This document shows positions 1,798 through 62,058 of a stretch of DNA of 64,000 nucleotides, piece after piece. The stretch is from Streptomyces sp. SCUT-3 (GTDB lineage: Bacteria; Actinomycetota; Actinomycetes; Streptomycetales; Streptomycetaceae). The notes below the pieces were generated by a model that searched no databases, was not told the DNA's origin, and was given only the letters and a program-made list of their open reading frames with translations. Where the stretch lies: assembly GCF_014083985.1 (NCBI RefSeq), contig NZ_CP046907.1, positions 1,248,501 through 1,312,500 on the forward strand, written 5' to 3'. The position numbers were made by a program, and so were the translations under genes. How positions within the stretch are numbered: the stretch's first letter is position 1; every line of letters starts with the position of its first letter.

Positions 1798-3420
1798 TCA
1801 CAGGCCCAGGGCCTCGGCGGCGGTGCGGCGCAGTTCGACCTTGCGGACCTTGCCGCTGACGGTCAGCGGGAAGCCCTCGACGACGTGGACGTACGCGGGG
1901 ACCTTGTAGTGGGCCAGCCGGCCGCGGCAGAACTCGGCGACCTCCTCGGCGGTCAGTCCGGCGTCCGGGTCGCGCAGCACGACGCAGGCGCAGACCGCTT
2001 CGCCGTAGCGCGGGTCGGGGACCCCGACGACCTGGACGTCGGTGATCGCGGGGTGCCGGTACAGGAACTCCTCGACCTCCCTGGGGTACACGTTCTCCCC
2101 GCCGCGGATGATCATGTCCTTGCTGCGGCCGACGATGTTCACGTAGCCGTCGGGGTTCATCACGGCCAGGTCGCCGGTGTGCATCCAGCCGTCGGCGTCG
2201 ACCGCCTCCGCGGTCCGCTCCGGGTCCTCCCAGTAGCCGAGCATGACCGAGTAGCCGCGGGTGCACAGCTCACCGGTGGTCCCGCGCGGCACGACCTCCC
2301 CGGTGGCCGGGTCCACCACCTGCACCTGGAGGTGCGGCAGGACGCGGCCGACGGTGGCGGTGCGGTGCTCGAGGTCGTCGTCGCGGCGGGTCTGGGTGGA
2401 CACCGGCGAGGTCTCGGTCATGCCGTAGCAGATGGACACCTCGACCATGTGCATCTCGGAGACGACCCGCTTCATCACCTCGACCGGGCAGGGCGAGCCG
2501 GCCATGATGCCGGTGCGCAGCGAGCCCAGGTCGTGGGAGGCGAAGTCGGGCAGGTCGAGTTCGGCGATGAACATCGTCGGCACCCCGTACAGGGAGGTGC
2601 AGCGCTCGGCGGCGACGGCGCGCAGGGTGGCGGCCGGGTCGAAGGCGGGCGCGGGGATCACGATGCAGGCGCCGTGGCTGGTGGCCGCCAGGTTCCCCAT
2701 GACCATGCCGAAGCAGTGGTAGAAGGGCACCGGCAGGCAGACGCGGTCCTGCTCGGTGTAGGCGACGAGCTCGCCCACCCAGTAGCCGTTGTTGAGGATG
2801 TTGCGGTGGGAGAGCGTCGCGCCCTTGGGGAAGCCGGTGGTTCCCGAGGTGTACTGGATGTTGATCGGGTCGTCGCACCCCAGGGCCGCCTGGTGGGCGG
2901 CCGGCTCGCCCGGGTCGACGGACGCGCCGTCGTCGACCAGGGCCTGCCAGGTCGGGTCGCCGATGTACACGGTCTCGCGCAGCTGCGGGCAGGAGGGGCG
3001 CACCTGCTCCACCATGGCCCGGTAGTCGCTGGTGCGGTACTCGGTGGAGGCGACCAGGAAGGAGATCCCGGACTGGTTGAGCACGTACTCCAGCTCGTGC
3101 ACCCGGTAGGCGGGGTTGATGTTGACCATGATCGCGCCGATGCGGGCGGTGGCGTACTGCACCAGCACCCATTCGGCGCAGTTGACGGCCCATATGCCGA
3201 CCCGGTCGCCGCGCCGCACGCCGCGGGCGATCAGGCCGCGGGCCACGTCGTCGACCGCCCGGCCGAACTCGGCGTAGGTCCAGCGGCGCCCGGAGGGGAC
3301 GTCGACGAGGGCGTCGCGGCCGGGGTGCGCGGCCACCGTGCGGTCCAGGTTGGCGCCGATGGTCTCGTCCAGCAGGGGCAGGTCGGTGGGGCCGGCGGCG
3401 AAGGAGAGGGTCTCGTTCAC
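1798..3420 (-). CDS. Acyl-CoA synthetase (AMP-forming), FadD-like
   Basis: 540 residues, normal for fatty-acyl-CoA ligases. It starts at GTG 3420 with AAGGAGA upstream. The P-loop-like A3 motif [11 protein letters not shown] is at 190-200, the adenylate-binding YGMTE follows in the middle third, and the C-terminal catalytic lysine is K524 in VSGKVRK. The family activates carboxylic acids to acyl-AMP and then acyl-CoA. Overall character resembles medium/long-chain FadD synthetases that feed beta-oxidation. It is the downstream member of a tandem pair with the synthetase at 3608-5296 and may share its transcript; an AlkB operon lies 4 kb away, so a role in activating alkane-derived fatty acids is possible but inferred. 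Confidence 0.9.
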
Positions 3421-47958: not shown

Positions 47959-49011
47959 TCACGCCGCGGCGGGCAGCTCCGGGCGCTCCTCCTTCTCCTG
48001 CGCGTCGAAGGAGGCGAGGGTCCGGGCGAAGTCCCTGGTGGAGAGCAGCAGCTTGTAGATGATGGCGAGCTCGAAGACCAGCAGCAGGACGGCCGCGCCG
48101 ACGGTGACGGGGACGAGCGCGCCGACCGCGGGGCCGACGATGAAGACGGCCATCTGGAACTCGATGCCGCTCACCAGGTGGGTGCGGATGCGGCGGCGCA
48201 GCAGGAAGGTGCGGAACCGGGCGTACCAGGGGAAGCGGCTGCGGAACTCCTGGTGCAGGTCGACGACGCCGGTCGGCACCGGGGCGACGGCCGCACCGGG
48301 CAGGCCGGCCTCCTCCGGCCCGCCGTCGGCCGCGGCACCGGCCACGGGCACGGCCACGACACCGGCGGCGTCGGCACCGGCGGCATCGGCGTCGGCCCGG
48401 GTGCCGACCTCGGTTTCGGCCTCGGGGTTGTCGCGGAGCAGGTCCTCCATGAAGGCGACCTCCCGCTCGGCCCCGGCCCGGCGCGCCTGCCGGGCGCGGG
48501 CCTTGATCTGCTTGCGCATGCCGTGCCGGATCTTGAAGATCTGCAGGGCGTCGACGTAGCGCAGCATGTCGAGGAAGACGACGGCGAGCGCCAGCCACAC
48601 GTAGAGGACGTCCCCGGTCCGGACGTACTGGCCGCCCATCAGGGCGACGGCGCAGAACAGCACCCGCACGCGGTCGAACACGTAGTCCAGCCACGCGCCG
48701 AAGACGGACCCGGTGCCGGTCAGGCGGGCGAGCTTTCCGTCCATGCAGTCCAGCACGAAGCTGACGTGGTACAGCGCGGCCCCGGCCAGCAGCCACCGCC
48801 AGTCCCCCTGCGCGAAGCAGGCCGCCGCGCCCAGCCCCAGGACCAGCGCGGCCCAGGTGATGCCGTTGGGGGTGACCCAGCGGGCCCGCCGGGCCGTGAA
48901 GCGGACCAGTGGAGTGGCCACCGGGTCCACGAGGAGCACGGTCCACCACGCGTCCCTTTTCTTCTCGGTGACGCGGCGGACCTCGGCGAGCGGGGGTATG
49001 TCGTGCAGCAT
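47959..49011 (-). CDS. CDP-alcohol phosphatidyltransferase-family protein
   Basis: 350 residues from ATG 49011; TTG 49017 is two codons earlier. The full catalytic motif D88-x2-D91-G92-x2-A95-R96-x8-G105-x3-D109-x3-D113 is present (CMDGKLAR, then DYVFD). It transfers a phosphate-linked group from a CDP-alcohol to an acceptor in the membrane. Hydrophobic helices flank the motif; about 100 residues of Ala/Gly-rich linker (near 190-265) and a second helical part follow. Product lipid unknown. Confidence 0.88.
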   Translation of the reverse strand: MLHDIPPLAEVRRVTEKKRDAWWTVLLVDPVATPLVRFTARRARWVTPNGITWAALVLGLGAAACFAQGDWRWLLAGAALYHVSFVLDCMDGKLARLTGTGSVFGAWLDYVFDRVRVLFCAVALMGGQYVRTGDVLYVWLALAVVFLDMLRYVDALQIFKIRHGMRKQIKARARQARRAGAEREVAFMEDLLRDNPEAETEVGTRADADAAGADAAGVVAVPVAGAAADGGPEEAGLPGAAVAPVPTGVVDLHQEFRSRFPWYARFRTFLLRRRIRTHLVSGIEFQMAVFIVGPAVGALVPVTVGAAVLLLVFELAIIYKLLLSTRDFARTLASFDAQEKEERPELPAAA

Positions 49012-49046
49012 GGTCAACTTTCCTGCATGGAACGGCGTTTCACGCC

Positions 49047-49076
49047 ACGCTAGGAATTCCGTTCACTGAAAAGCAA
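49047..49076 (-). promoter_or_regulatory. Promoter of the CDP-alcohol transferase gene
   Basis: On the minus strand TTGCTT (49076-49071) and TAGCGT (49052-49047) are 18 bases apart. A small leader hairpin GGCGT-TTC-ACGCC (49034-49046) follows. The region is AT-rich relative to its surroundings. Confidence 0.5.
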
Positions 49077-49313
49077 GATGCCGGCCATACAACCTTCTTC
49101 CCTCGTCAGAGGTCTTGTGATCAACAAGGGTCCACGGAATTCCCAGGCGTCCGTGCCGTTTCCGCGTCTTTTTCCGCACCGCGGCGGCCCCTTTTCCCTG
49201 CTGCCCTCCCCCGTCCCCCCGCAATTCCCCGCGCCCGGCTCTTTCCCTGTGCGGCCCGCCCGGGTGCGAGAATGACCGGGCAAGAACGGCGGCGGGGTCC
49301 ACGGAGGTGGCGG
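49077..49313. other. Divergent regulatory region
   Basis: This stretch with the promoter above makes about 300 bases between the divergent transferase and kinase genes. It is AT-richer near 49080-49180. Nothing coding is convincing; the promoter of the kinase gene was not located. Confidence 0.3.
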
Positions 49314-50213
49314 GTGGCAGGAACGGAGCGGGGCACGGCGGTGCTGCCCTTCACCGAGGCGCAGGCCCGTTCGGTCCTAGCCGCGCTGCGCGGCGCGGAC
49401 GCCGCGGCGGACTCGAGGCTCGTCGCGTTCAGCGAGAACGCGGTGTTCGCCCTGCCGGACGGGCAGGTGGCCAAGGTCGGGCGCAGCGCGGAGCTGCTGG
49501 ACCGGGCCCGCCACGAGCTGCGGGTCTCGCAGTGGCTGGCCGGCCGGGACGTGCCCTCGGTGCGCCCGGCGGACCCGTCGGCCCACTTGGTGGACGGCCA
49601 CCCCGTCACCTTCTGGAAGCGGCTGCCGGAAGCCGTGCGCCCCGCCCGCCCGGCCGACCTGGCCCCCCTGCTCGCCCTCGTGCACTCCCTGCCGTCGCCG
49701 CCGTTCGACCTGCCCCGCCGGGAACTGCTGGGCGGCGTGGAGCGCTGGCTGCGGCTGGCCGGGGACGCGATCGACCCCGAGGACGCCCGGTTCCTGCGCG
49801 AGCGCCGCGACGGCTTCGCCCCCGCCGCGGCCGCCCTGACCCCGCACCTGCCGCCCGGGCCGATCCACGGGGACGCGCTGCCGCGCAACGTCCTGGTGGG
49901 CCCGGACGGGCCCGTGCTGGTGGACCTGGAGACGTTCTCCCTGGACCTGCGCGAGCACGACCTGGTGGTCCTGGACCTCAGCCGGGACCGCTACGGCCTC
50001 CCCGCCGCCGAGTACGACGCGTTCACCGCCGCCTACGGCTGGGACGTGCGCGAGTGGGAGGGGTGCGCGGTGCTGCGCGGCGCCCGGGAGACGGCCAGCT
50101 GCGCCTGGGTCGCCCAGCACGCCCCGGCGAACCCCGGGGCCCGGGCGGAGTTCCGCCGCCGGGTGGCCTCCCTCCGCGACGGCGACCCCACCGTCCGCTG
50201 GTACCCGTTCTGA
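49314..50213 (+). CDS. Aminoglycoside-phosphotransferase-like kinase (APH fold)
   Basis: 299 residues from GTG 49314, six bases after GGAGG; ATG 49272 is 14 codons upstream without such a site. N-lobe with AKVG lysine (LPDGQVAKVGRSAELLDRARHE), catalytic loop GPIHGDALPRNVLV near 184-197 and metal-binding VLVDLETFSL. Fits the APH/choline kinase superfamily; substrate unknown and an antibiotic-resistance role is not implied. Divergent from the lipid transferase gene. Confidence 0.85.
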   Translation: MAGTERGTAVLPFTEAQARSVLAALRGADAAADSRLVAFSENAVFALPDGQVAKVGRSAELLDRARHELRVSQWLAGRDVPSVRPADPSAHLVDGHPVTFWKRLPEAVRPARPADLAPLLALVHSLPSPPFDLPRRELLGGVERWLRLAGDAIDPEDARFLRERRDGFAPAAAALTPHLPPGPIHGDALPRNVLVGPDGPVLVDLETFSLDLREHDLVVLDLSRDRYGLPAAEYDAFTAAYGWDVREWEGCAVLRGARETASCAWVAQHAPANPGARAEFRRRVASLRDGDPTVRWYPF

Positions 50214-50218
50214 GCCCT

Positions 50219-50296
50219 CCCGGCCCGCCCCGCCCCCGCCCCCGCCCGGGCCGCCGCCCCCGCCCCCGCCCGGGCCGCCGCCCCCGCCCGGGCCGG
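50219..50296. repeat. A/T-free repetitive spacer
   Basis: Seventy-eight bases contain no A or T. CCCGCCCGGGCCGCCGCC-type units repeat two to three times. It lies between the convergent kinase gene and the Pro-rich protein gene, and the CCCGGG cores could form hairpins. Confidence 0.6.
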
Positions 50297-50319
50297 TCGG
50301 GGCCGGCGCGGGCGTGCGG

Positions 50320-50847
50320 TCAGCGGCCCGCCGCCGTCTCGATCCAGGTCAGGATCGCCCGGACGGTGTCCGGCTCGAGGTCGGCGATGGCGCGGATCGC
50401 GCTCCCGTCGCCGGGCATCGGCGGGATGCCGGCGGCGATCAGGGCCGAGTGCAGCGCCAGCCGGTGCTGGTCCTGCGGGGCGAGCAGCGACCTGCGGCGC
50501 GCCGCCCCGTCCTTCGCGGCGGGCCGTGCGGCCGGGGCCGCGTCGCCGCCGGGCGCGGAGGCCGGCACGGGGGCGGGCGGAGAGGCGGGGCCGGCGGGGG
50601 CCGCGGAGCCGGCCGGAGCGGGCGGGGCGGGCGGGGCGAGGTAGTAGCCTCCCCCCGCAGTCTGCGGGACGGGGCCGGAGGGCGCCTGCTGCCCGGAGGG
50701 CGCTGTGCCGGCGGGCGCCTCCCCGGACGGCGCCGCCCCGGGGGGTACCGTGCCCGCGGGCAGGGTCTCGGGGCAGGTGCCCAGGAGGGCGTCGAGGTCC
50801 CCCAGAGGCACGAAAACGGTGTCGTTCCATGGATGGGCCATGGTCAT
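50320..50847 (-). CDS. Hypothetical Pro/Ala-rich protein
   Basis: 175 residues from ATG 50847 with GGGAGG upstream; the frame extends to 51006 without support. Begins MTMAHPWNDTVFVPLGDLDALLG, then 90 residues of Pro/Ala/Gly-rich sequence, and a compact C-terminus QDQHRLALHSALIAAGIPPMPGDGSAIRAIADLEPDTVRAILTWIE that looks like a small helical domain. Not recognised. No signal peptide or membrane helix. Confidence 0.65.
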   Translation of the reverse strand: MTMAHPWNDTVFVPLGDLDALLGTCPETLPAGTVPPGAAPSGEAPAGTAPSGQQAPSGPVPQTAGGGYYLAPPAPPAPAGSAAPAGPASPPAPVPASAPGGDAAPAARPAAKDGAARRRSLLAPQDQHRLALHSALIAAGIPPMPGDGSAIRAIADLEPDTVRAILTWIETAAGR

Positions 50848-51049
50848 GGCGGCCTCCCGGCAGCTGAGGAAACGACAGGACCCCTTGTCAACCCCGCAAG
50901 GGGCCGACTGGTTCTGCCGGTTCCCAGGATTCACGCGATGGGCGCAACGCGGCGCCGGGACATTCGCACCTGTGCTCGGAGAGCACCAGCCGGAACGATT
51001 CCCCACCGGCGGGCCCCGGGACGGGAGCCGCCCCGGGGGCGGGGGTGCG

Positions 51050-52297
51050 TCAGGACACGGGGCGCGAGTCGGCCCAGAACCCCTCGAACTCCTCGCGGTA
51101 GACGTCGAAGAGCCCGTGCTCGCCCCCGCTGTCGCCGTGCACCAGGTCCCGGGACCGCCCCCGGCCGCCGCGCAGCACCAGCACCGGCGCCTCCATGCCG
51201 CGGGCGCGGCGCAGGTAGGACTGGACGACCGCCAGTCCGTCGGAGCCGTCGCCGTCGACGAGGTAGGCGGTGAAGCGGGGGGTCTCGTCGAAGACCCGGA
51301 TCTCGAACGCCCCGGTGTCGTGGACCCGGGAGCGGACCCGGCGCATGTGCATGATGTTCATCTCCACCGACCGGCTCAGCTCCCCCCTGCCCAGGCCGAG
51401 TTCGCGCTCGCGACGGCGCACGGCGCTGCTGGCCGGGTTGAGGAAGAGCAGCCGGACCCTGGCCCCGGACTCGGCCAGCCGCACCAGGCGCCGGCCGGAG
51501 TAGTTCTGCACCAGCAGGTTCAGCCCTATGCCGATGGCGTCCAGGCGGCGCGACCGTCCGAAGAGGTCCTCCACCGGCAGCTGCCGCTGCAGCCGCACCC
51601 GGTCCGGGTGGACCGCGACGACGTCGGCGTAGCGGTCGCCGACCAGCTCCTCGACCGCGTCGACCGCGAGCCGGTCCGAGGAGGGCGTGCCGCCGGCGGT
51701 GCCCAGCAGGGTCAGCAGCCGCTGGGCGGCCCGCTCGGCCTGCGCGAGCACGGTCCCGGACAGGTTCCGGTTGCGCGAGACGACGTGCCGGGCGACCTCC
51801 AGCTCGTCCAGCGCCAGCTCCAGTTCGCGCCGGTCCTCCAGGAACGGGTCGAAGCAGGGCCAGTGCTGGACGACCAGTTCGCGCAGCTGCGGGAGGGTGA
51901 GGAAGCTGATGACGTTGTCGTCGGCCGGGTCCAGCAGGTACCCCTTGCGCCGGCTGACCTCGCGGACGGCCGCGGCGCGCTGCACCCACTCCTGCCCCGC
52001 GGGGCCGGCCGCCGCGACCACCCACTCCTCACCGTGCACCGGCTCGTACACCGGCCGCAGCACGGCGGCCACGACGGCCCGCAGCCGCTGCTCGACCAGG
52101 TTCAGCCAGACGTACGCCCGCCCGGCCCGCCGGGCGCGGCTGCGCACCTCTGTCCACGCGTCGGTGCCCCAGTCCAGTTCCGCTCCGATCTCCGGGGGCC
52201 GGGCGACGGCCACGGCGGCGGCCGTCGGCTCGCCGCTCGGGTAGGGGTCTCCCTGGTCTCCGCCACCGGGGAGCACCAGTCCTCCCGAGGTCACCAC
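51050..52297 (-). CDS. SAV2148-type HEPN-domain protein
   Basis: 415 residues from GTG 52297 (GTG 52294 is adjacent; the frame reaches TTG 52330). It matches from memory the streptomycete SAV2148 family: ARPPEIGAELDWGTDAWTEVRSRARRAGRAYVWLNLVEQRLRAVVAAVLRPVYEPVHGEEWVVAAAGPAGQEW, DPADDNVISFLTLPQLRELVVQHWPCFDP and SYLRRARGMEAPVLVLRGG. HEPN domains are helical and often act as RNases; the R-x4-6-H motif of active ones is not clear here. Highly conserved within the genus but of unknown role. Confidence 0.82.
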   Translation of the reverse strand: MVTSGGLVLPGGGDQGDPYPSGEPTAAAVAVARPPEIGAELDWGTDAWTEVRSRARRAGRAYVWLNLVEQRLRAVVAAVLRPVYEPVHGEEWVVAAAGPAGQEWVQRAAAVREVSRRKGYLLDPADDNVISFLTLPQLRELVVQHWPCFDPFLEDRRELELALDELEVARHVVSRNRNLSGTVLAQAERAAQRLLTLLGTAGGTPSSDRLAVDAVEELVGDRYADVVAVHPDRVRLQRQLPVEDLFGRSRRLDAIGIGLNLLVQNYSGRRLVRLAESGARVRLLFLNPASSAVRRRERELGLGRGELSRSVEMNIMHMRRVRSRVHDTGAFEIRVFDETPRFTAYLVDGDGSDGLAVVQSYLRRARGMEAPVLVLRGGRGRSRDLVHGDSGGEHGLFDVYREEFEGFWADSRPVS

Positions 52298-52373
52298 CGC
52301 ACCGCCCTTTCGACCCCCGTCCACGATCAAGGAAGACTACTGCGACGGCGGCGGACGGCGCAGCCCGATGAGC

Positions 52374-53693
52374 CTACTGTCCTTCCTCCCAGCGGGGTTC
52401 GCCGTTGTAGCGCGGATCGTGCAGGTGGTCGGGCGTGATCGGGCTCATGGCGGTGACGTCGCGCGGGGCGATCTGGAAACCCTGCCAGTGGACGGGCATA
52501 GGCGCCTGGTCCTCGTCGCGGGCGATGTGGTGGAAGCCGACGTTGACCCACACCACGGGCCTGGTCAGCTCCTGCCCGTCGACGAACCGGTCGACGGTGT
52601 CGGCGCACCTCGGCTCGAACTCCCGGTTTCCGCTGGCGTACTTCTCGCACCCCTTGTACTGGGTGAAGTAGACGTCGTGCGAGGTGTACTCGTGCGGCGA
52701 GTACTTGTCGGTGTGCTGCTGGACGATCTCCCAGGAGCGGGGGTGGCCGTCTGCGTTCTTCCCGGTGTTGCTGACCACCCGCCACCAGCGGCTGGGGGCG
52801 GCGTCTCCGGCGGTCTCCTTCACCAGCCGCTTCCTGGTGGTCCTCAGCCGGGCCACGCCGTCGGCGCTGCGGCCGTCCGGCTCGGTGTCCCACTGCTCGA
52901 CCTTGGCCTTCCTGGAGCCGTCGATGTCGAAGTCGAGCCGCCAGAAGACGTTGTGGTGGTGGCTGGTGGCCTTGTCCCGGTTGCCCTTGCCGAGCGGCAT
53001 CCCGGTGGTGTCGCCGGCGTCGTAGTCGGCGGGCGAGAGGTTGCCGGTGGCGCCCTCCTTGGCCGTGACGGTGCCGTCGTCGGAGAAGTTCCACTGGGTG
53101 ATGTAGTGGTAGTAGCCGACCGAGTTGACCACGTAGACGACCAGGTCGTCGCCCTGGGCGCTGTCGGTGCGGCCGGGGTCCTCGCCGATGTCGGAGCTGT
53201 TGCCGTGGTAGGCGAACCCGCGCGGCTGCGTGGTCACGCACAGCGCCGGGACGGGCCGCTGCCCCTCGACCCTGATGTTCTTGACGGTGCCGCCGGGGCA
53301 GTCGGCGGGCGCCAGCCTCTCCGGCGTGCTGCCGAAGTAGAACGAGGTGATGTCGTTGTACTCCTGGGCGCCGTTGTCGTAGGGCACGTTGATCTGCGCG
53401 AGGCGGGCCGCGGCGAGCACCTTGATCGGCCTGCGCTCGTGCCGGGGCTGGTAGGAGACGTTCTCCAGGACCAGGCCGGCGGTGGGGCTGTTGTGCCAGC
53501 ACATCCGCCACGTGGTGCCGTTGGGGAGCTTCTTGGCGATCGCCGACCCGGGGCTGCAGCCGGTGGCGGACGGCGGGGCCGGCTCCGGGGCGGCCGGGGC
53601 GGCCTGCGCCGCGGGCCCGGCGGAGGCGCCGGTGGTCAGGACGAGGAGCGCCGGTGCCGCGAGGAGGGCGAGGCGCCGCACGGATGCGTGCAT
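52374..53693 (-). CDS. Secreted copper amine oxidase, catalytic domain only
   Basis: 439 residues from ATG 53693. A Sec signal peptide covers about 1-33 (RRLALLAAPALLVLTTGASA). The mature part is the beta-sandwich catalytic domain without N2/N3 domains (usual total 620-700 residues). By alignment of known motifs: catalytic base D114 (QEYNDITSFYFG), topaquinone precursor Y195 in GYYHY, copper ligands H245 and H247 (SHHHN) and H388 or H389 (GFHHIARDEDQAPMP). Family oxidises primary amines to aldehydes, H2O2 and ammonia. Y194 replaces the conserved Asn before the topaquinone tyrosine. Its missing domains resemble the gene upstream. Confidence 0.85.
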   Translation of the reverse strand: MHASVRRLALLAAPALLVLTTGASAGPAAQAAPAAPEPAPPSATGCSPGSAIAKKLPNGTTWRMCWHNSPTAGLVLENVSYQPRHERRPIKVLAAARLAQINVPYDNGAQEYNDITSFYFGSTPERLAPADCPGGTVKNIRVEGQRPVPALCVTTQPRGFAYHGNSSDIGEDPGRTDSAQGDDLVVYVVNSVGYYHYITQWNFSDDGTVTAKEGATGNLSPADYDAGDTTGMPLGKGNRDKATSHHHNVFWRLDFDIDGSRKAKVEQWDTEPDGRSADGVARLRTTRKRLVKETAGDAAPSRWWRVVSNTGKNADGHPRSWEIVQQHTDKYSPHEYTSHDVYFTQYKGCEKYASGNREFEPRCADTVDRFVDGQELTRPVVWVNVGFHHIARDEDQAPMPVHWQGFQIAPRDVTAMSPITPDHLHDPRYNGEPRWEEGQ

Positions 53694-53837
53694 GGGAGGT
53701 GACTCCGCTTCTTGGGATCCCCGGACGGGGAGGAGACGATGGGGTGCGCACCGGCGCCGGACGCCGCGTCCGCGCGCCACGACCGCGCGCCGCGGTCGTG
53801 CACCGCGGCTGTGCGGCGGGGCACCGGGCACACCGGG

Positions 53838-53927
53838 TGTGCCGGGTGTGCCGGGTGTGCCGGGCGTGCCGGGCGTGCCGGGCGTGCCGGGTGTGCCGGG
53901 TGTGCCGGGTGTGCCGGGTGTGCCGGG
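53838..53927. repeat. Tandem repeat, ten 9-base units
   Basis: Ten copies of YGTGCCGGG run without interruption (three T, three C, four T variants of the first base). It lies between the two genes of the split amine oxidase and seven bases past the stop of the upstream one (53935). Copy number is likely variable between strains. Confidence 0.9.
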
Positions 53928-53934
53928 CGGCGCC

Positions 53935-54804
53935 CTACGGCAGGCGCAGGGCGGTGCGGGCGCTCAGGTCGACGACCAGATGGCGCACGTCGATCCACGG
54001 CCCGTCCGCCACCCGGGTGAAAAGGCGTACGCACCGGTGCTCGCCGCACTTCGCGGCCGGCCCGGTCACGCCCTCGGGCGCGCGGTAGGTCAGGCCGCGG
54101 GTGTCCAGCTGGGCGGCCCGGGCGAGTGTCCGGCCGGTGGCGGCCCGGTAGTCCTCCTTCAGCCCCGCGCCGAGCGGGCTGTCCAGCAGGACGTCGACGG
54201 CCTCGGCCGCCTCGGCCCGCGAGGGCGGCGGCTGGGCGTTCCCGTTCCTCTCCGAGGCGACGACCTCGTGGTCCGTCAGGTCGACGGTCTTCTTCACCAG
54301 CGTGTCGTCGGAGTAGTCGTAGAAGTAGACCTCGGCGCGGCGGTGGCCGTCCCCTCCGGTGCCCCCGTCCCCGGAGGGCCGGGCGAGGGCGGTGCTGAGG
54401 TACTGGGCGTCCCCGTCCTTCCCGCGGACGTCCTCGGCGGCCGTGCGCAGTCCCCTGTCGCGCGCCAGGGCGAGGTCCCTGGCAGCCTCGATCTCGTCCG
54501 GGGTGAGGGCGTCGCGCCCGGTCCCGGTCTCCGCGGGCGGGGCGGGCTCCTCCACCACGCCGGGCGCGTCGTCCGCTCGGGACGCGCCGTCCGTGCCGGG
54601 CGCGCCGTCCGCGGACGCCGCCCGCCCGGGTCCGTCCGCCCGTCCCGGCCGGTCGGTGCCCGCCGCGCCCGCCGTCCCGTCCTGTCCCGCCGCGTTCAGC
54701 GGCACGGTCACCGCCAGCATCGCGGCGGTGCAGGTGACCGCCAGTCCCGCCCCGATCGCCGCGCGCCGCAGCACCGTGCGGCGGCGTTCCCCCCGTGGTT
54801 CCAC
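53935..54804 (-). CDS. Membrane-anchored protein resembling amine-oxidase N2/N3 domains
   Basis: 289 residues from GTG 54804 (GGGGGA upstream); a longer start at GTG 54939 has a weaker site. Residues 12-36 are one membrane segment after RRRTVLRRAA. A disordered Gly/Ala/Asp linker follows to about 95. Residues 98-225 show the amine-oxidase N2 pattern: LTPDEIEAARDLAL, AEVYFYDYSDDTLVKKTVDLTDHEVVAS, then QPPPSRAEAAEAVDVLLDSPLG. Residues 235-289 resemble the end of N3 (RCVRLFTRVADGPWIDVRHLVVDLSARTALRL). The catalytic domain is encoded by the next gene, 241 bases downstream. Confidence 0.65.
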   Translation of the reverse strand: MEPRGERRRTVLRRAAIGAGLAVTCTAAMLAVTVPLNAAGQDGTAGAAGTDRPGRADGPGRAASADGAPGTDGASRADDAPGVVEEPAPPAETGTGRDALTPDEIEAARDLALARDRGLRTAAEDVRGKDGDAQYLSTALARPSGDGGTGGDGHRRAEVYFYDYSDDTLVKKTVDLTDHEVVASERNGNAQPPPSRAEAAEAVDVLLDSPLGAGLKEDYRAATGRTLARAAQLDTRGLTYRAPEGVTGPAAKCGEHRCVRLFTRVADGPWIDVRHLVVDLSARTALRLP

Positions 54805-55085
54805 TGCTTCCCCCGTGTCCGTCGTACGTCCGGCAGGGCCGGCCCTCTCCGGGCCCGTCTCCCCTGCCCTCCTTGGGGACGCGGCCGGGCCCGGGAGGGT
54901 TGCACGGGGCGGGCGGGGCGGGCGGGTCGCGTGGGGCACGAGAGGGGCTCACGGGGGCGCGCGGCGCGACACCGATGACGGAAGACGGGCGAAAAGCGCA
55001 CGGATCGCCCCGGGCTGGGCGAGGATTTTCCCGGAACCGGTGGCCGACAGGAGCACCGGCACCGGATGACGGGAAGAGACACAGC

Positions 55086-57224
<2,139 letters not shown>

Positions 57225-57400
57225 CGCCCGCGGGCACGGCGGGGGGCGGCGGGCGGCGGGTACGGGCACGGGGGTGCGGGCGCGCCGGTGCCCGCGCCCG
57301 GCGCGTCCCGGTCCGGGCGCGCCCCCGTTCGGCCGGAAAGCGCCCCCCGGCCCGGGCCCCCGGGTGGTGAGCGGCCCGGCCACGGGGTAGTCAGAGCTTC

Positions 57401-59965
57401 ATGACGCCGACGCCCGAGCAGCACCGGCCCGAGCAGCACCGGCCCGAACCGGCCCCCGCCGGAACGGCTCCCGCAGCCCCGGCGGTGCCCACCGCGACGT
57501 ACCGGCTGCAGCTCCAGCCGGACTTCCCCCTGTCCGCGGCCGAGGCCGCCGTCCCCCGTCTGGCCGCACTGGGCGTCTCGCACCTGCACCTGTCCCCGGT
57601 GCTCCAGGCCTGTCCCGGCTCCACCCACGGCTACGACGTGGTCGACCACACCCGGATCGGCGAGGAGATCGGCGGCGAGGACGCCCTGCGCTCCCTGGCC
57701 CGCACCGCCCGCGCGCACGGCATGGGGCTGGTCGTGGACATCGTGCCCAACCACATGGCCGTCCCCGTCCCCGAGCACCTGAGCGAACCGCTGTGGGAGG
57801 TGCTGCGCGACGGCCCCGGATCCCGCTTCGCCGACTGGTTCGACATCGACTGGGCGGTGCAGGAGGGCCGGCTGCTGCTGCCCGTCCTAGGCGGCCGGCT
57901 GGGCCCCGAGCTCGGCGCCCTGGAGACCGGCACCGCCACCGTCCGGGGCCGGGAGGAGAGGGTGCTGCGCTACCACGACCACGTCTTCCCGCTGCGGCCC
58001 GGCACCGAGGACCTGCCCCTGCCCGGGCTGCTGGAGCACCAGTGGTACCGCCTGGCCTGGTGGCGGCTGGCCCGCACCGAGCTCAACCACCGCCGCTTCT
58101 TCACCATCTCCGACCTCATCGGGGTGCGCGTGGAGGACGAGGCGGTCTTCGCCGCCACCCACGGCAAGCTCCTGGAACTCGTCCGCGACGGGGTCGTGGA
58201 CGGCCTGCGCGTGGACCACCCCGACGGCCTCGCCGACCCCCGCGGCTACCTGCGCCGCCTGCACGCGGCCACCGGCGGGCGGTGGACCGTGGTGGAGAAG
58301 ATCCTCGGCCCCGGCGAACCCCTGCCCGCCGACTGGCCCTGCGCGGGCACCACCGGCTACGACGCGCTCAAGCACGTCGACGGCCTGTTCGTCGACCCGG
58401 CGGGCGCCGCCCGCCTGGCCGAGGTGTGGACCGACTTCGCCCGCCTCCCCGCCACCCTGGGCGGCAACTGGGCAGCCACCGTCGCCCGCGCCACCGGGGA
58501 GGTCGTCACCGAGGACCTGGCGACCGAGGTCGCCCGCCTGGTCCGCGCCGCCGACCGCGTCTGCTCGAAGGACCCGCAGCTGGCGGACCACGCCCCGTGG
58601 GCGCTGCGCACCGCCGTGCGGGGGCTGCTGGCGGGCATCCCCGTCTACCGCCCCTACGTCGTCCCCGGCGAGCCCGCCCCCGAACGCGACGCCGCCCTGC
58701 TGGAGGCCGCCGCAGGGCCCGCCCGCGCGGCCTTCGCCGTCCCCGAGGAGGCGCACGCGGTCGACGTCGTGCGCGACCTGGCGCTCGGGCGGCTCGGCCG
58801 CGGCCCCGACCACGACGACTTCGCCGTCCGCTTCGCCCAGGTCTCCTCCGCGCTGCGCGCCAAGGCGGTCGAGGACACCGCCTTCTACCGCTGGCACCCG
58901 CTGCTGGGCGTGAACGAGGTCGGCGGCGACCCGGCGCGCCCCGGCACCTCCCCGGAGGACTTCCACGCCTTCGCCGCCCGCATCCAGCGCGACTGGCCGG
59001 CCACCGCCACGGTGCTGTCCACCCACGACACCAAGCGCAGCGCGGACGTGCGCGCCCGGCTGGCCGTGCTGTCCGAGGTGCCCGAACTGTGGCGCGAGTG
59101 GCTGGAGAAGGAGTCCGCGGCCGACGGGCGCGGCAGGCCCGCCGCCCCGGACCGCCAGGTGGAGTACCTGGTGCGGCAGACCGCGGTCGGCCTGGGGCAC
59201 TGCGAAGCGGAACGGCTGGTGCCCGCCGTGCTGAAGTCGGTGCGCGAGGCCCGACTGCGCACCGGCTGGACCACCCCGGACCCCGACTACGAGGCCGCCG
59301 TGGAGGCGTTCGTGCGCGGCCTGTGCGAGGACGAGGAGCAGGTGGCCGCCCTGGCCTCGTTCACCGCCGTCCTGGAACCGTACGCGCACGCCAACTCCCT
59401 CGGCGCCGCCCTGGTCCACCTGACGATGCCCGGCGTCCCCGACCTCTACCAGGGCTCCGAGCGGGAGCTGCTCACCCTCGTGGACCCGGACAACCGCCGC
59501 CCGGTGGACTTCCCCCGTCCGTTCGACGCCGACGGGTTCGAACGCTCCCTGTCCCTGGGCCGGGGGCCCACCGGGAACCTGTCCGACCGCAAGCTGCGGC
59601 TGACCGCCACCGCCCTGCGGCTGCGCCGCGAGCACCCCGAGTGGTTCGGCGCCGGAGGCGGCTACGCCCCGCTGCACGCCCGCGGCCCGGCCGCCGAGCA
59701 CCTGCTCGCCTTCCTCCGAGGCGGCGGGGACGGCGGGGACGGGACGGGCGGCGGGAACGGGACGGCCGGCGGGGCGATCACCGCCGTCGTCCGGCTCTCA
59801 CGCGACCTCGCGCAGTCCGGCGGCTGGCACGACACCGTCCTGGACCTGCCCGGGGGCCCCTGGACCGACCTGATCACCGGCGCCGTCCACCCCGCCGGCC
59901 CCAACCGCGCCTCGGCCCTCTTCGCCGGCGGCCCCGCCGTCCTCCTCGTGCCCACACCCCGCTGA
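57401..59965 (+). CDS. treY: Maltooligosyl trehalose synthase
   Basis: 854 residues from ATG 57401. Converts the reducing-end alpha-1,4 bond of maltodextrins to the alpha,alpha-1,1 bond of trehalose; TreZ then releases trehalose. GH13 blocks: TYRLQLQPDFPLSAAEAAVPRLAALGVSHLHLSPVLQACPGSTHGYDVVDH, LVVDIVPNHM, DGLRVDHPDGLADP, WTVVEKILGPGEPLP and STHDTKRSADVRARL. The treZ gene is not in the window. A Gly-rich insert lies near 780. Confidence 0.96.
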   Translation: MTPTPEQHRPEQHRPEPAPAGTAPAAPAVPTATYRLQLQPDFPLSAAEAAVPRLAALGVSHLHLSPVLQACPGSTHGYDVVDHTRIGEEIGGEDALRSLARTARAHGMGLVVDIVPNHMAVPVPEHLSEPLWEVLRDGPGSRFADWFDIDWAVQEGRLLLPVLGGRLGPELGALETGTATVRGREERVLRYHDHVFPLRPGTEDLPLPGLLEHQWYRLAWWRLARTELNHRRFFTISDLIGVRVEDEAVFAATHGKLLELVRDGVVDGLRVDHPDGLADPRGYLRRLHAATGGRWTVVEKILGPGEPLPADWPCAGTTGYDALKHVDGLFVDPAGAARLAEVWTDFARLPATLGGNWAATVARATGEVVTEDLATEVARLVRAADRVCSKDPQLADHAPWALRTAVRGLLAGIPVYRPYVVPGEPAPERDAALLEAAAGPARAAFAVPEEAHAVDVVRDLALGRLGRGPDHDDFAVRFAQVSSALRAKAVEDTAFYRWHPLLGVNEVGGDPARPGTSPEDFHAFAARIQRDWPATATVLSTHDTKRSADVRARLAVLSEVPELWREWLEKESAADGRGRPAAPDRQVEYLVRQTAVGLGHCEAERLVPAVLKSVREARLRTGWTTPDPDYEAAVEAFVRGLCEDEEQVAALASFTAVLEPYAHANSLGAALVHLTMPGVPDLYQGSERELLTLVDPDNRRPVDFPRPFDADGFERSLSLGRGPTGNLSDRKLRLTATALRLRREHPEWFGAGGGYAPLHARGPAAEHLLAFLRGGGDGGDGTGGGNGTAGGAITAVVRLSRDLAQSGGWHDTVLDLPGGPWTDLITGAVHPAGPNRASALFAGGPAVLLVPTPR

Positions 59966-60008
59966 GCCCCGCCCCCTGGCTACGCCGCCCCACCCCGCCA
60001 CCCGGCGA

Positions 60009-60036
60009 CGCCGTTCCGGGACCGCCCGGAACGGCG
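60009..60036 (+). terminator. Terminator of treY
   Basis: Perfect 12-bp stem CGCCGTTCCGGG / CCCGGAACGGCG with loop ACCG, 43 bases past the treY stop. TACCCT (60038-60043) right after it may be the -10 of the kinase gene. Confidence 0.65.
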
Positions 60037-60097
60037 CTACCCTGCTCCCGTCGCGCTGCAGTGGGGCAGCGGGCGCTGTGCGTCGTCGGGGGGTGGC

Positions 60098-61921
60098 GTG
60101 GCCGGGTCAGGTGTTCGGCCGACCGAGGCGGGGGACCCGCAGTCGTTCGGCCCTTATCGCGTGCTCGGGCGCCTCGGCTCCGGGGCCATGGGACGGGTGT
60201 ACCTGGCGTCCTCGCCCGGCGGCCGGCTGGTCGCGGTGAAGACGCTGCTGGCCGAGGCGGCGGTCGGCGACGCCGACCGGGAGCGGTTCGCCCGCGAGGT
60301 GAAGCTCGCCCGCCGGGTCAAGGGCATCCACACCGTGGACGTGGTCGCCGCAGACGTCGAGGCGCGGCCGCCGTGGATGGCCACCGAGTACGTTCCCGCC
60401 CCCTCGCTCGCCGAACTGGTGCAGCAGGCCGGCACGCTGCCCGTCGGCGCCGTCGAGCGGGTGGCCGCCGGCGCGGCGGAGGCGCTGCTCTGCCTGCACC
60501 GGGCAGAGGTCGTCCACCGGGACGTCAAGCCGTCCAACATCCTGCTGCCGCCGGACGGCCCGCGCCTGATCGACTTCGGCATCTCCCACGCGGCCGACAC
60601 CACGCGGACCATGCTCACCCTGGGCACCATCGCCTTCACCTCGCCCGAGCAGGCGAGCGGCGAGCCGAGCACCACGGCCTCGGACGTCTACTCGCTGGGC
60701 GCCACACTGTTCCACCTCGCGGTCGGCCGACCGCCCTACACCGAGGTGGGCGACACGCTGCGGCTGCTGTCGCAGGTCTCGCGGGGACAGGTGGACCTGT
60801 CCGGCCTGCCGCCCGAACTGGAACCGCTGATCCTCCCGTGCCTGAGGACGGACCCGGAGGAACGCCCGGAGCCCGCGCGGATCGTCGGGCAGCTCGCCGA
60901 CGCCCTCGCGGACGGGCCGGCGCCACCGGGCGGCACGGGCTGGCTGCCCCCGGCGTGGGCCCGGCTCGTCGACGAGTACGGGCGCCGCGGGCAGGAGCTG
61001 CAAAGGGGCGCGGCCCGGGCGCCGTCACCGGACGCACCGACCGAGAACCTCAGGAACCGCGGGGCCTCCGGCTCCCCCACGCGCCCCTACACCCGCCTCC
61101 ACGACCACCCGCGCCCGGACGGGGGCCGTCCGCGTCCGCAGGGGGTTCGGCCACGCCCCGAGAGGGTGCGTCCGAGCACCGGGACCGGCTCCCCGGCAGG
61201 GGCCGTCCCCGCGGCCGCCGCGGAGACCCGGAGGACCGAGAAGGCGCAGAAGGGCTGGGGAGGCGTGTTCCTCCTCGTCGCGGCCGTCTGGTTCTTCGCC
61301 CTCTACCAGCAGAACCAGGACGACGGCACGTCAGCGGGGGCGACGAGCACGGGCTCGAGTGCGGGTTCGAGCTCGGGCGCGGGCTCGCAGGGGTACTACA
61401 CGCCGCCGCCCTCGCCCACCCCCGAGCCGGAGGACCTCGCCTTCCGGGCGGTGAGCCCCGGCGACTGCCTCGACGCCTACCGGGAGGGCGAGGACTGGAA
61501 CACCGACGTGCCCCGGACCGTCGACTGCGACGCGGCCAGCGCCTACTTCTGGGTGTCCGACACCTCGGACTCCTTCGGTTCGGACTGCCCGACGGGTGCG
61601 GGGCGCAGCTACTGGTCCCACGTGGGGACCACCGGCAGCACCACGCTGTGCGTGCAACGCCAGTTCCGCGAGGGCCAGTGCTTCGTGGCGAAGCAGTCGG
61701 ACAAGGGCGCCGTCCAGGACGGGCTGCTCACGAACGTGTGGAACTGCGACGCGGACACCGTCCCGTCGGGCTACAACCAGATACTCCGGATCACCGGCTA
61801 CTACAAGGCGCCGAAGACGATCCCGCGCGGGTTCTGCTCCGAGGACCAGTACGACCGGACCTCCTACTGGACCTGGGAGGTCGACGACGGCAAGTCCGTC
61901 CTGTGCACCACGGTCGCCTGA
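60098..61921 (+). CDS. Membrane Ser/Thr protein kinase with Cys-rich extracellular domain
   Basis: 607 residues from GTG 60098 (GGGGGG upstream). Eukaryotic-type kinase domain about 20-275: glycine loop GRLGSGAMG, K48, catalytic H140-R-D142-V-K144, D159-F-G161. A Pro/Arg-rich juxtamembrane linker leads to one membrane helix at about 389-404 (VFLLVAAVWFFALY). The outer region begins with a Ser/Gly linker and a PPPSPTPEP run, then a 165-residue domain with about nine cysteines (for example SPGDCLDAY, TVDCDAAS, RGFCSEDQYD) and many Trp and Tyr. No PASTA repeats, so it senses something else than peptidoglycan through PASTA. Confidence 0.93.
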   Translation: MAGSGVRPTEAGDPQSFGPYRVLGRLGSGAMGRVYLASSPGGRLVAVKTLLAEAAVGDADRERFAREVKLARRVKGIHTVDVVAADVEARPPWMATEYVPAPSLAELVQQAGTLPVGAVERVAAGAAEALLCLHRAEVVHRDVKPSNILLPPDGPRLIDFGISHAADTTRTMLTLGTIAFTSPEQASGEPSTTASDVYSLGATLFHLAVGRPPYTEVGDTLRLLSQVSRGQVDLSGLPPELEPLILPCLRTDPEERPEPARIVGQLADALADGPAPPGGTGWLPPAWARLVDEYGRRGQELQRGAARAPSPDAPTENLRNRGASGSPTRPYTRLHDHPRPDGGRPRPQGVRPRPERVRPSTGTGSPAGAVPAAAAETRRTEKAQKGWGGVFLLVAAVWFFALYQQNQDDGTSAGATSTGSSAGSSSGAGSQGYYTPPPSPTPEPEDLAFRAVSPGDCLDAYREGEDWNTDVPRTVDCDAASAYFWVSDTSDSFGSDCPTGAGRSYWSHVGTTGSTTLCVQRQFREGQCFVAKQSDKGAVQDGLLTNVWNCDADTVPSGYNQILRITGYYKAPKTIPRGFCSEDQYDRTSYWTWEVDDGKSVLCTTVA

Positions 61922-62000
61922 CGGGCCCAGGGGCCGTCCGCCCGGGGGCCGCCCGGGCCGGTCGGCGTGCCGCCGCGCATGCCCGTCGCGGCGGCGGGGT

Positions 62001-62024
62001 ACGCCCCCTCCCGTACGGGGGCGT
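62001..62024. promoter_or_regulatory. Inverted repeat upstream of VOC gene
   Basis: ACGCCCCC (62001-62008) and GGGGGCGT (62017-62024) flank TCCCGTAC, 34 bases before the VOC start. It may be an operator or a hairpin after the kinase gene. Confidence 0.35.
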
Positions 62025-62058
62025 CGCGGAAGCGGCCGAGGAGTGAGGGGTTTCGGAA

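Follow-up and report, generated by a model that had tools for sequence, protein, structure and literature searches.

A copper amine oxidase encoded by two neighboring genes in Streptomyces sp. SCUT-3 and other actinomycetes

The gene pair and its two proteins

Copper amine oxidases (CAOs) are copper enzymes that oxidize amines, and each is normally one long protein. The window (the whole 64,000-nucleotide stretch analyzed here, positions 1,248,501 to 1,312,500 of Streptomyces sp. SCUT-3 contig NZ_CP046907.1) contained a CAO in two pieces, encoded by separate neighboring genes on the minus strand: P0002, whose product was related to domains N2 and N3 of ordinary CAOs, and, downstream of it, P0001, whose product was the CAO enzyme domain alone. 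A preliminary description, made from the sequence alone, had put two reading frames at these positions and on this strand, and both were found there. The genome was a single contig of 6.08 Mb, and P0001 was the only place in it that matched PF01179, the Pfam family of the enzyme domain. The features of the pair were as follows.

52374..53693, minus strand: P0001, catalytic subunit gene, CAO enzyme domain alone, 439 residues
53598..53693, minus strand: signal-peptide-like N-terminus of P0001, about residues 1-32 (sequence and hydropathy)
53352..53354, minus strand: D114 of P0001, catalytic base (alignment; Asp in 97/97 short and 20/20 full-length CAOs)
53109..53111, minus strand: Y195 of P0001, topaquinone precursor tyrosine (alignment), preceded by Y194 instead of Asn
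52953..52961, minus strand: H245-x-H247 of P0001, two copper ligands (97/97 short and 20/20 full-length CAOs)
52527..52529, minus strand: H389 of P0001, third copper ligand (97/97 short and 20/20 full-length CAOs)
53935..54804, minus strand: P0002, N2/N3-like partner gene, 289 residues, with the GTG start of the preliminary description
54697..54762, minus strand: hydrophobic residues 15-36 of P0002, either a membrane anchor or a signal peptide (hydropathy)
54514..54696, minus strand: low-complexity linker of P0002, residues 37-97 (low predicted local distance difference test (pLDDT), G/A/D-rich sequence)
54244..54513, minus strand: N2-like domain of P0002, about residues 98-187 (hhalign and fold)
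53938..54243, minus strand: N3-like domain of P0002, about residues 188-289, with W270 aligned with AGAO W168 (hhalign)

The P0002 frame stayed open upstream as far as a GTG at 54939.

P0001 matched PF01179 over residues 61-413 (profile positions 22-400 of 407; E 6.7e-38; 131.1 bits against a Pfam curated cut-off of 27), and the Pfam search gave no domain besides PF01179, in keeping with the earlier reading of this gene as a catalytic domain only. Its AlphaFold2 model (pLDDT 80.6, predicted template-modeling score 0.81) had the fold of domain D4, the best PDB match being AGAO 3wa2 (Foldseek E 3.3e-23). Residues were compared in an alignment of 97 short CAOs, 20 full-length CAOs, and five single-chain compact and four type B CAOs (see below); the 97 short sequences came from the 80 and 16 loci surveyed below plus the window, and they represented many related species and not 97 independent events. 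The three copper histidines, the base aspartate, the precursor tyrosine, and the cofactor-holding tyrosine were present in 97/97 short CAOs, window included, and in 20/20 full-length ones. Within the short family, Y105, D114, Y195, H245, H247, H389, and M399 each stood at 97/97, and H388, beside the third ligand H389, was also invariant; D114, Y195, H245, H247, and H389 had thus been named correctly from the start.

Two features distinguished the short family from the full-length set: (i) the residue before Y195 was Trp in 89, Tyr in seven, and His in one, with Asn in 0/97, while the corresponding residue in the 20 full-length CAOs was Asn in 19 and Val in one, and (ii) the cysteine pair C46/C65 occurred in 97/97 short CAOs and in none of the full-length set. 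The window motif at the cofactor tyrosine was S-V-G-Y-Y-H, with His after Y195 at a position that was mostly Glu in the short family. A passage of a CAO review called this Asn strictly conserved and gave 5-10% cofactor formation for the HPAO-1 Ala mutant (PMC3382800); an excerpt of PMC9491219 put AGAO N381A at a 160-fold lower kcat and a 180-fold slower topaquinone biogenesis, yet 97/97 short CAOs do without the Asn, and the family breaks the rule. Since this Asn was absent, P0001 was filed as a divergent CAO variant in which the surroundings of the cofactor, and possibly also the rate or the substrate, would be unlike those of studied CAOs. The bulky aromatic side chain before Y195 may hold the cofactor ring in place of Asn.

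P0002 was composed of a single hydrophobic stretch (residues 15-36), a linker ending near residue 97, and a region at about residues 100-289 that was predicted with confidence, the pLDDT of the AlphaFold2 model there being mostly >90. The linker had already been noted in the preliminary description, which also gave the protein one membrane helix; hydropathy confirmed the single hydrophobic stretch, with which a cleaved signal peptide was also compatible. That the remainder reads like N2 plus N3 was supported both by sequence profiles and by fold. A profile of 46 P0002 relatives matched the N-terminal (N2-N3) parts of 16 full-length CAOs over 167 columns and residues 98-288 (hhalign 96.2%, E 2.5e-9), with reversed-alignment controls at E 0.43 and 0.38 and a value of 1% against the CAO catalytic domain; a wider family alignment repeated the N2-N3 match (E 3e-9; reversed, 0.61). 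To limit near-copies, the 46-member alignment and a further one of 47 members each took only part of the rows available. The full-length CAO set excluded L021, L022, and L030, whose matches were short or lay at odd positions. NCBIfam gave P0002 a sub-threshold match to the primary-amine oxidase NF008559 (E 0.047) in the N2 part, and the P0002-family profile, searched against the whole genomes of the class, gave five weak places beyond its own family, of which all four fetched (the one in G588 was not among them) were the N2 part of full-length CAOs. At the level of fold, 50/50 PDB matches listed by Foldseek for the P0002 model were CAOs (best E 2.6e-7), and VIA-align placed residues 93-289 on HPAO 19-207 (Z 10.4, 173 residues, root-mean-square deviation (rmsd) 4.2) and residues 95-289 on AGAO 10-190 (Z 9.1), so that the predicted structure was CAO-related and residues 93-289 aligned to N2 and N3. 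P0002 is thus a distant homolog of CAO N2 plus N3, the relationship being remote and firmer for N2 than for N3. W270 of P0002 aligned with AGAO W168, which we take to be a substrate-channel residue, and this position was W in 16, Y in seven, F in two, and R in one sequence (aromatic in 25/26). The conserved substrate-channel positions 155 and 156 of HPAO-1, named in a passage of PMC3382800, fell inside the stretch aligned with P0002 (19-207).

Distribution of the pair and divergent two-gene forms

The two-gene CAO form is real and widespread in actinomycetes, being frequent in Streptomyces and its relatives. The locus survey comprised the best 80 of 363 loci from named genomes, whose titles were all Streptomyces, Wenjunlia, or Actinacidiphila, except for one Actinomycetes metagenome-assembled genome. 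The partner lay upstream of the catalytic gene, on the same strand and in a separate frame, in 79 of the 80, and the 80th locus started at a contig end; gene order matched domain order, as had been described for the window. Among 61 relatives, P0002 was present at seven places in six genomes, each adjoined by a close P0001 relative (7/7), and 18 other genomes had distant CAOs only, in long frames. The partner profile matched 127 of 394 genomes of the family (six of them weakly) and 33 of 296 genomes of the class, the latter composed of 13 from the same family, 16 strong matches in five other families, and four weak ones. A short CAO lay directly downstream of the partner in 16/16 loci from the five other families; the pair overlapped by four bases (ATGA/GTGA) in seven of these 16, which indicated a single transcript with coupled translation.

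The pairing was also examined in reverse by running PF01179 over 101 genomes of the family and comparing the result with the list of partner matches. The 44 CAO places fell into two clear classes: (i) 23 at E 1e-146 or better, which were full-length CAOs and none of which occurred among the partner matches, and (ii) 21 at E 1e-32 to 1e-43, each with a partner located upstream, 187-455 bp from the Pfam match (seven read directly as two frames, the other 14 paired by coordinates). The co-occurrence of the two genes was therefore upheld in 79/80, 16/16, and 21/21 loci or places. Across the phylum, the partner profile matched 19 of 396 genomes, six strongly, all of them Streptomycetaceae, and 13 weakly; no full-length partner protein was found among the fetched weak matches, with few genomes sampled per class. 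Full-length CAOs were reached through their N2 part in this survey as well. Fourteen phylum-survey loci were fetched, a set outside which the place G725:C4:1091232 lay, and four of them (L195, L197, L199, and L202) were without a CAO; their matches look like the hydrophobic or low-complexity N-terminus of the partner. Among plasmid records, 89 had a P0001 match, all at <60% identity (24-27% among the matches listed).

Two side observations concerned copy number and decay: (i) one genome, G022, had two copies of the pair on contigs C1 and C18 (L003, L007, and L032), 44-51% identical to the partner of the window, and (ii) at G205:C1:6053688-6054076, two partial matches to the partner overlapped in different frames, which may mark a partner gene in decay.

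The N-termini and C-termini of the pair bore on its location. The maximum 19-residue mean hydropathy was at least 1.6 in 74/75 partners against 35/75 catalytic subunits (the count leaving out the partner fragments L038, L086, L106, and L114 and the missing partner of L105), and in the window the N-terminus of P0002 was longer and more hydrophobic than that of P0001; read from sequence, the hydrophobic stretch of P0002 together with its linker is probably a membrane anchor. Pro/Thr-rich tails ended some catalytic subunits. Two catalytic subunits of another family, L175:4777-6642 (+) and L176:4830-6695 (+), ended in a Thr/Pro-rich linker, an extra domain, an LPxTG-like motif (LGNTG and LASTG), a hydrophobic stretch, and a basic tail, and they are likely sortase-anchored judging from these motifs. 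Immunoglobulin-like C-terminal tails were seen on the catalytic subunits of L174 and L177-L180, and Big_3_5 was confirmed for L174. The N-terminal hydrophobic stretches, together with the LPxTG-like signals and tails, suggest a cell-surface location for the enzyme.

Another two-gene CAO, much more divergent and here called type B, was reached through weak partner matches and was found at four loci (L204-L207) in one Streptomycetaceae genus, represented by the following frames.

L204:1296-2180 and 2180-2839, minus strand: catalytic and partner frames

Type B shared with the window pair the CAO catalytic residues and the two-gene arrangement with the N2/N3-like gene first, but its proteins were smaller (partner about 220 residues, catalytic gene about 285-295 residues), and hydrophobic N-termini were absent from both of them (checked in L204 and, for the partner, also in L207). 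The frames overlapped by ATGA in 4/4 loci. The L204 catalytic protein matched PF01179 at 37.5 bits against the cut-off of 27, and the type B partners matched the partner family of the window over the end of N2 plus N3 (97%, E 5e-11; reversed, 0.53). The PF01179 genome scan listed no match for G072 and G104, two genomes that hold type B genes, and a whole-genome Pfam search can therefore miss the most divergent CAOs.

Single-chain compact CAOs were found as L190:417-2075 (+) and L203:1357-2964 (+), from one genome of another class, and as L208-L210 from family f19. All five had Trp before the precursor tyrosine, within the motif Gly-Trp-Tyr-Arg-Tyr. An N2-like region was fused in front, by profile, in L190 and L203, and none was found by profile in L208-L210 at E up to 1. 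In an unrooted tree that took 19 of the 97 short CAOs, type B joined the single-chain compact CAOs (100/96), and the family of the window stood apart (100/98). The two-gene state thus occurred in two non-sister groups, which implies either two separations or one separation plus a rejoining. Separately, at L196:973-2088 and 2073-3320 (+), two overlapping frames made up an ordinary CAO interrupted toward the end of N3; the break was a frameshift, an assembly error, or another separation.

Proposed assembly of the pair, alternatives, and known enzymes

The two genes quite probably encode one heteromeric cell-surface CAO, in which the N2/N3 subunit completes the substrate channel. The two-piece enzyme is based on the homology of P0002, its fold, the near-perfect pairing, and the intact catalytic residues, from which we infer subunit binding, export, tethering, activity, and substrate as follows. 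P0001 would be exported, bind copper, and make topaquinone from its own Y195; P0002 would stay tethered to the outside of the membrane through the hydrophobic helix at its N-terminus; the N2- and N3-like domains would dock where their counterparts sit in an ordinary CAO and form one wall of the amine channel to the cofactor. Docking and completion of the channel are suggested by the HPAO-1 155/156 and AGAO W168 positions, which fall in the stretch aligned with P0002. Acting on primary amines, the assembled oxidase would yield aldehyde, ammonia, and hydrogen peroxide.

Several observations weigh against this assembly. By sequence, no Pfam family matched P0002 at E up to 10; in 46 P0002 relatives, PF21994 (AGAO-like_N2) was matched by two (best 3.4e-4), PF02727 by two (best 0.091), and PF02728 (N3) by none at E up to 1; a PDB sequence search with P0002 alone or with the 46-member profile matched no CAO. 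Of the profile matches predicted for the pair, that of P0001 to PF01179 stood, and that of P0002 to PF02727/PF02728 failed by Pfam, its N2-N3 relationship showing in the profile-profile comparison with full-length CAOs. By structure, the P0002 model superposed on CAOs with an rmsd of 4-8 Å, and the N3 half of the hhalign alignment was gapped and shifted between settings, which leaves the relative placing of the two domains unsure. The family positions aligned with AGAO F105 and P136-L137 were not conserved as such, and there were half-length structural matches of P0002 to YpmB-like proteins. As for function, the partner might be dispensable for turnover because, according to an excerpt of PMC6163217, an engineered 220-residue AGAO piece was active without N2/N3; the activity of the Trp form is not assured because studied CAOs depend on the Asn for their speed.

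An extension of the heteromeric oxidase, unlikely in our estimate, would make P0002 a removable lid: with the lid, small amines would be oxidized, and without it a wide-open, Trp-lined site would oxidize amino groups of macromolecules, so that the pair would be a bacterial lysyl oxidase counterpart, cross-linking or marking its own surface and making hydrogen peroxide, and CAOs would have become two-gene enzymes on more than one occasion.

The best-surviving rival, which we hold to be rather improbable, takes P0002 as a membrane-bound chaperone derived from N2/N3 that would aid the folding, copper uptake, or quinone formation of P0001 and then leave. Gene pairing would be expected alike under it, P0002 has its own anchor-like helix and long linker, and the partnerless AGAO piece is reported to be active (PMC6163217). 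Both domains have, however, kept the order and place that they occupy ahead of the catalytic domain in ordinary CAOs, and the N2-like region fused in front in L190 and L203 speaks for a lasting structural role. There is little likelihood that the CAO fold of P0001 is dead or has been repurposed, serving in copper binding or adhesion only, next to a fragment of the old front domains: the precursor tyrosine, three histidines, base aspartate, cofactor-holding tyrosine, and methionine were each retained in 97/97 sequences, and a dead enzyme would not keep them so. It is very improbable that P0002 is built from a pair of PepSY/YpmB-like domains whose likeness to N2/N3 is one of fold only and whose role is to regulate something else; YpmB, YpeB, and CD1622 did align to P0002 residues 96-187 (Z 6.7-7.8), but these matches spanned one domain while the CAOs spanned both in order (Z up to 10.4), and the sequence profiles pointed to CAOs, as did the near-perfect pairing with a CAO catalytic gene. 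An ordinary CAO gene split by a frameshift, a kind of break for which L196 gives an example, has a negligible chance of explaining the pair, since the locus survey refuted it: 79 loci plus 16 of other families had two frames with their own starts, their own N-terminal hydrophobic stretches, and gaps of up to 407 bp, and the sequences of the pair were far from ordinary CAOs.

The proposed heteromeric enzyme differs from its closest known relatives. A passage of PMC3382800 presents the structurally characterized CAOs as homodimers of one chain, D2-D3-D4. AGAO, ECAO, and HPAO-1 had the catalytic fold, copper ligands, base, and precursor tyrosine in common with P0001. Compared to them, (i) N2 and N3, which they carry in the same chain, were present in trans in P0002, (ii) the pair had two genes and two chains, with a hydrophobic N-terminus on the N2/N3 part, and (iii) the short family had the Asn before the cofactor tyrosine replaced and the extra C46/C65; a one-chain N2-N3-catalytic arrangement was not what the window and 79/80 loci contained, the genes being separate. 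The engineered 'mini' diamine oxidase from AGAO is a catalytic part without N2/N3, as is P0001, but it is man-made, of 220 residues, and partnerless (PMC6163217), while the natural pair keeps both parts as neighbors. Type B differed in grouping with the single-chain compact forms and not with the family of the window. YpmB/PepSY-like extracytoplasmic domains had the fold of one P0002 domain and covered half of P0002; we know of no pairing of such domains with a CAO. A two-gene CAO was not found described in the open-access literature searched, subscription journals lying mostly outside that search.

CAOs are among the best-studied quinoenzymes, and the roles of N2/N3 in them are hard to test because these domains are fused to the catalytic domain. 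The natural pair offers N2/N3 as a separate protein to add, remove, or swap, and its frequency in Streptomyces and related bacteria puts the question within reach of routine genetics.

Chromosomal setting

As in many Streptomyces, the pair was flanked by what look, by eye, like divergent trehalose/glycogen-type genes upstream and a SAV2148-like gene downstream (window 47959-62046). Four to five neighbor families recurred near the pair, in 62, 60, 56, 54, and 48 of 80 loci; recognized by eye, they were presumably GlgX/TreX, TreY, a SAV2148-like protein, an exonuclease, and an aminoglycoside-phosphotransferase-like protein. In the loci from other bacterial families, which span only about 4 kb per side, a search with representatives of these neighbor families yielded a single weak match. 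The recurrent neighbors suggest an ordinary chromosomal site and not a pathway.

One further feature lay between the two genes.

53833..53927, strand not assigned: 9-bp tandem repeat, 10.6 copies, intergenic between P0001 and P0002

The gap between the pair genes was -4 to 407 bp in 79 relatives (median 58, with start codons picked by a heuristic) and 241 bp in the window, where its length is probably due to the 9-bp tandem repeat.

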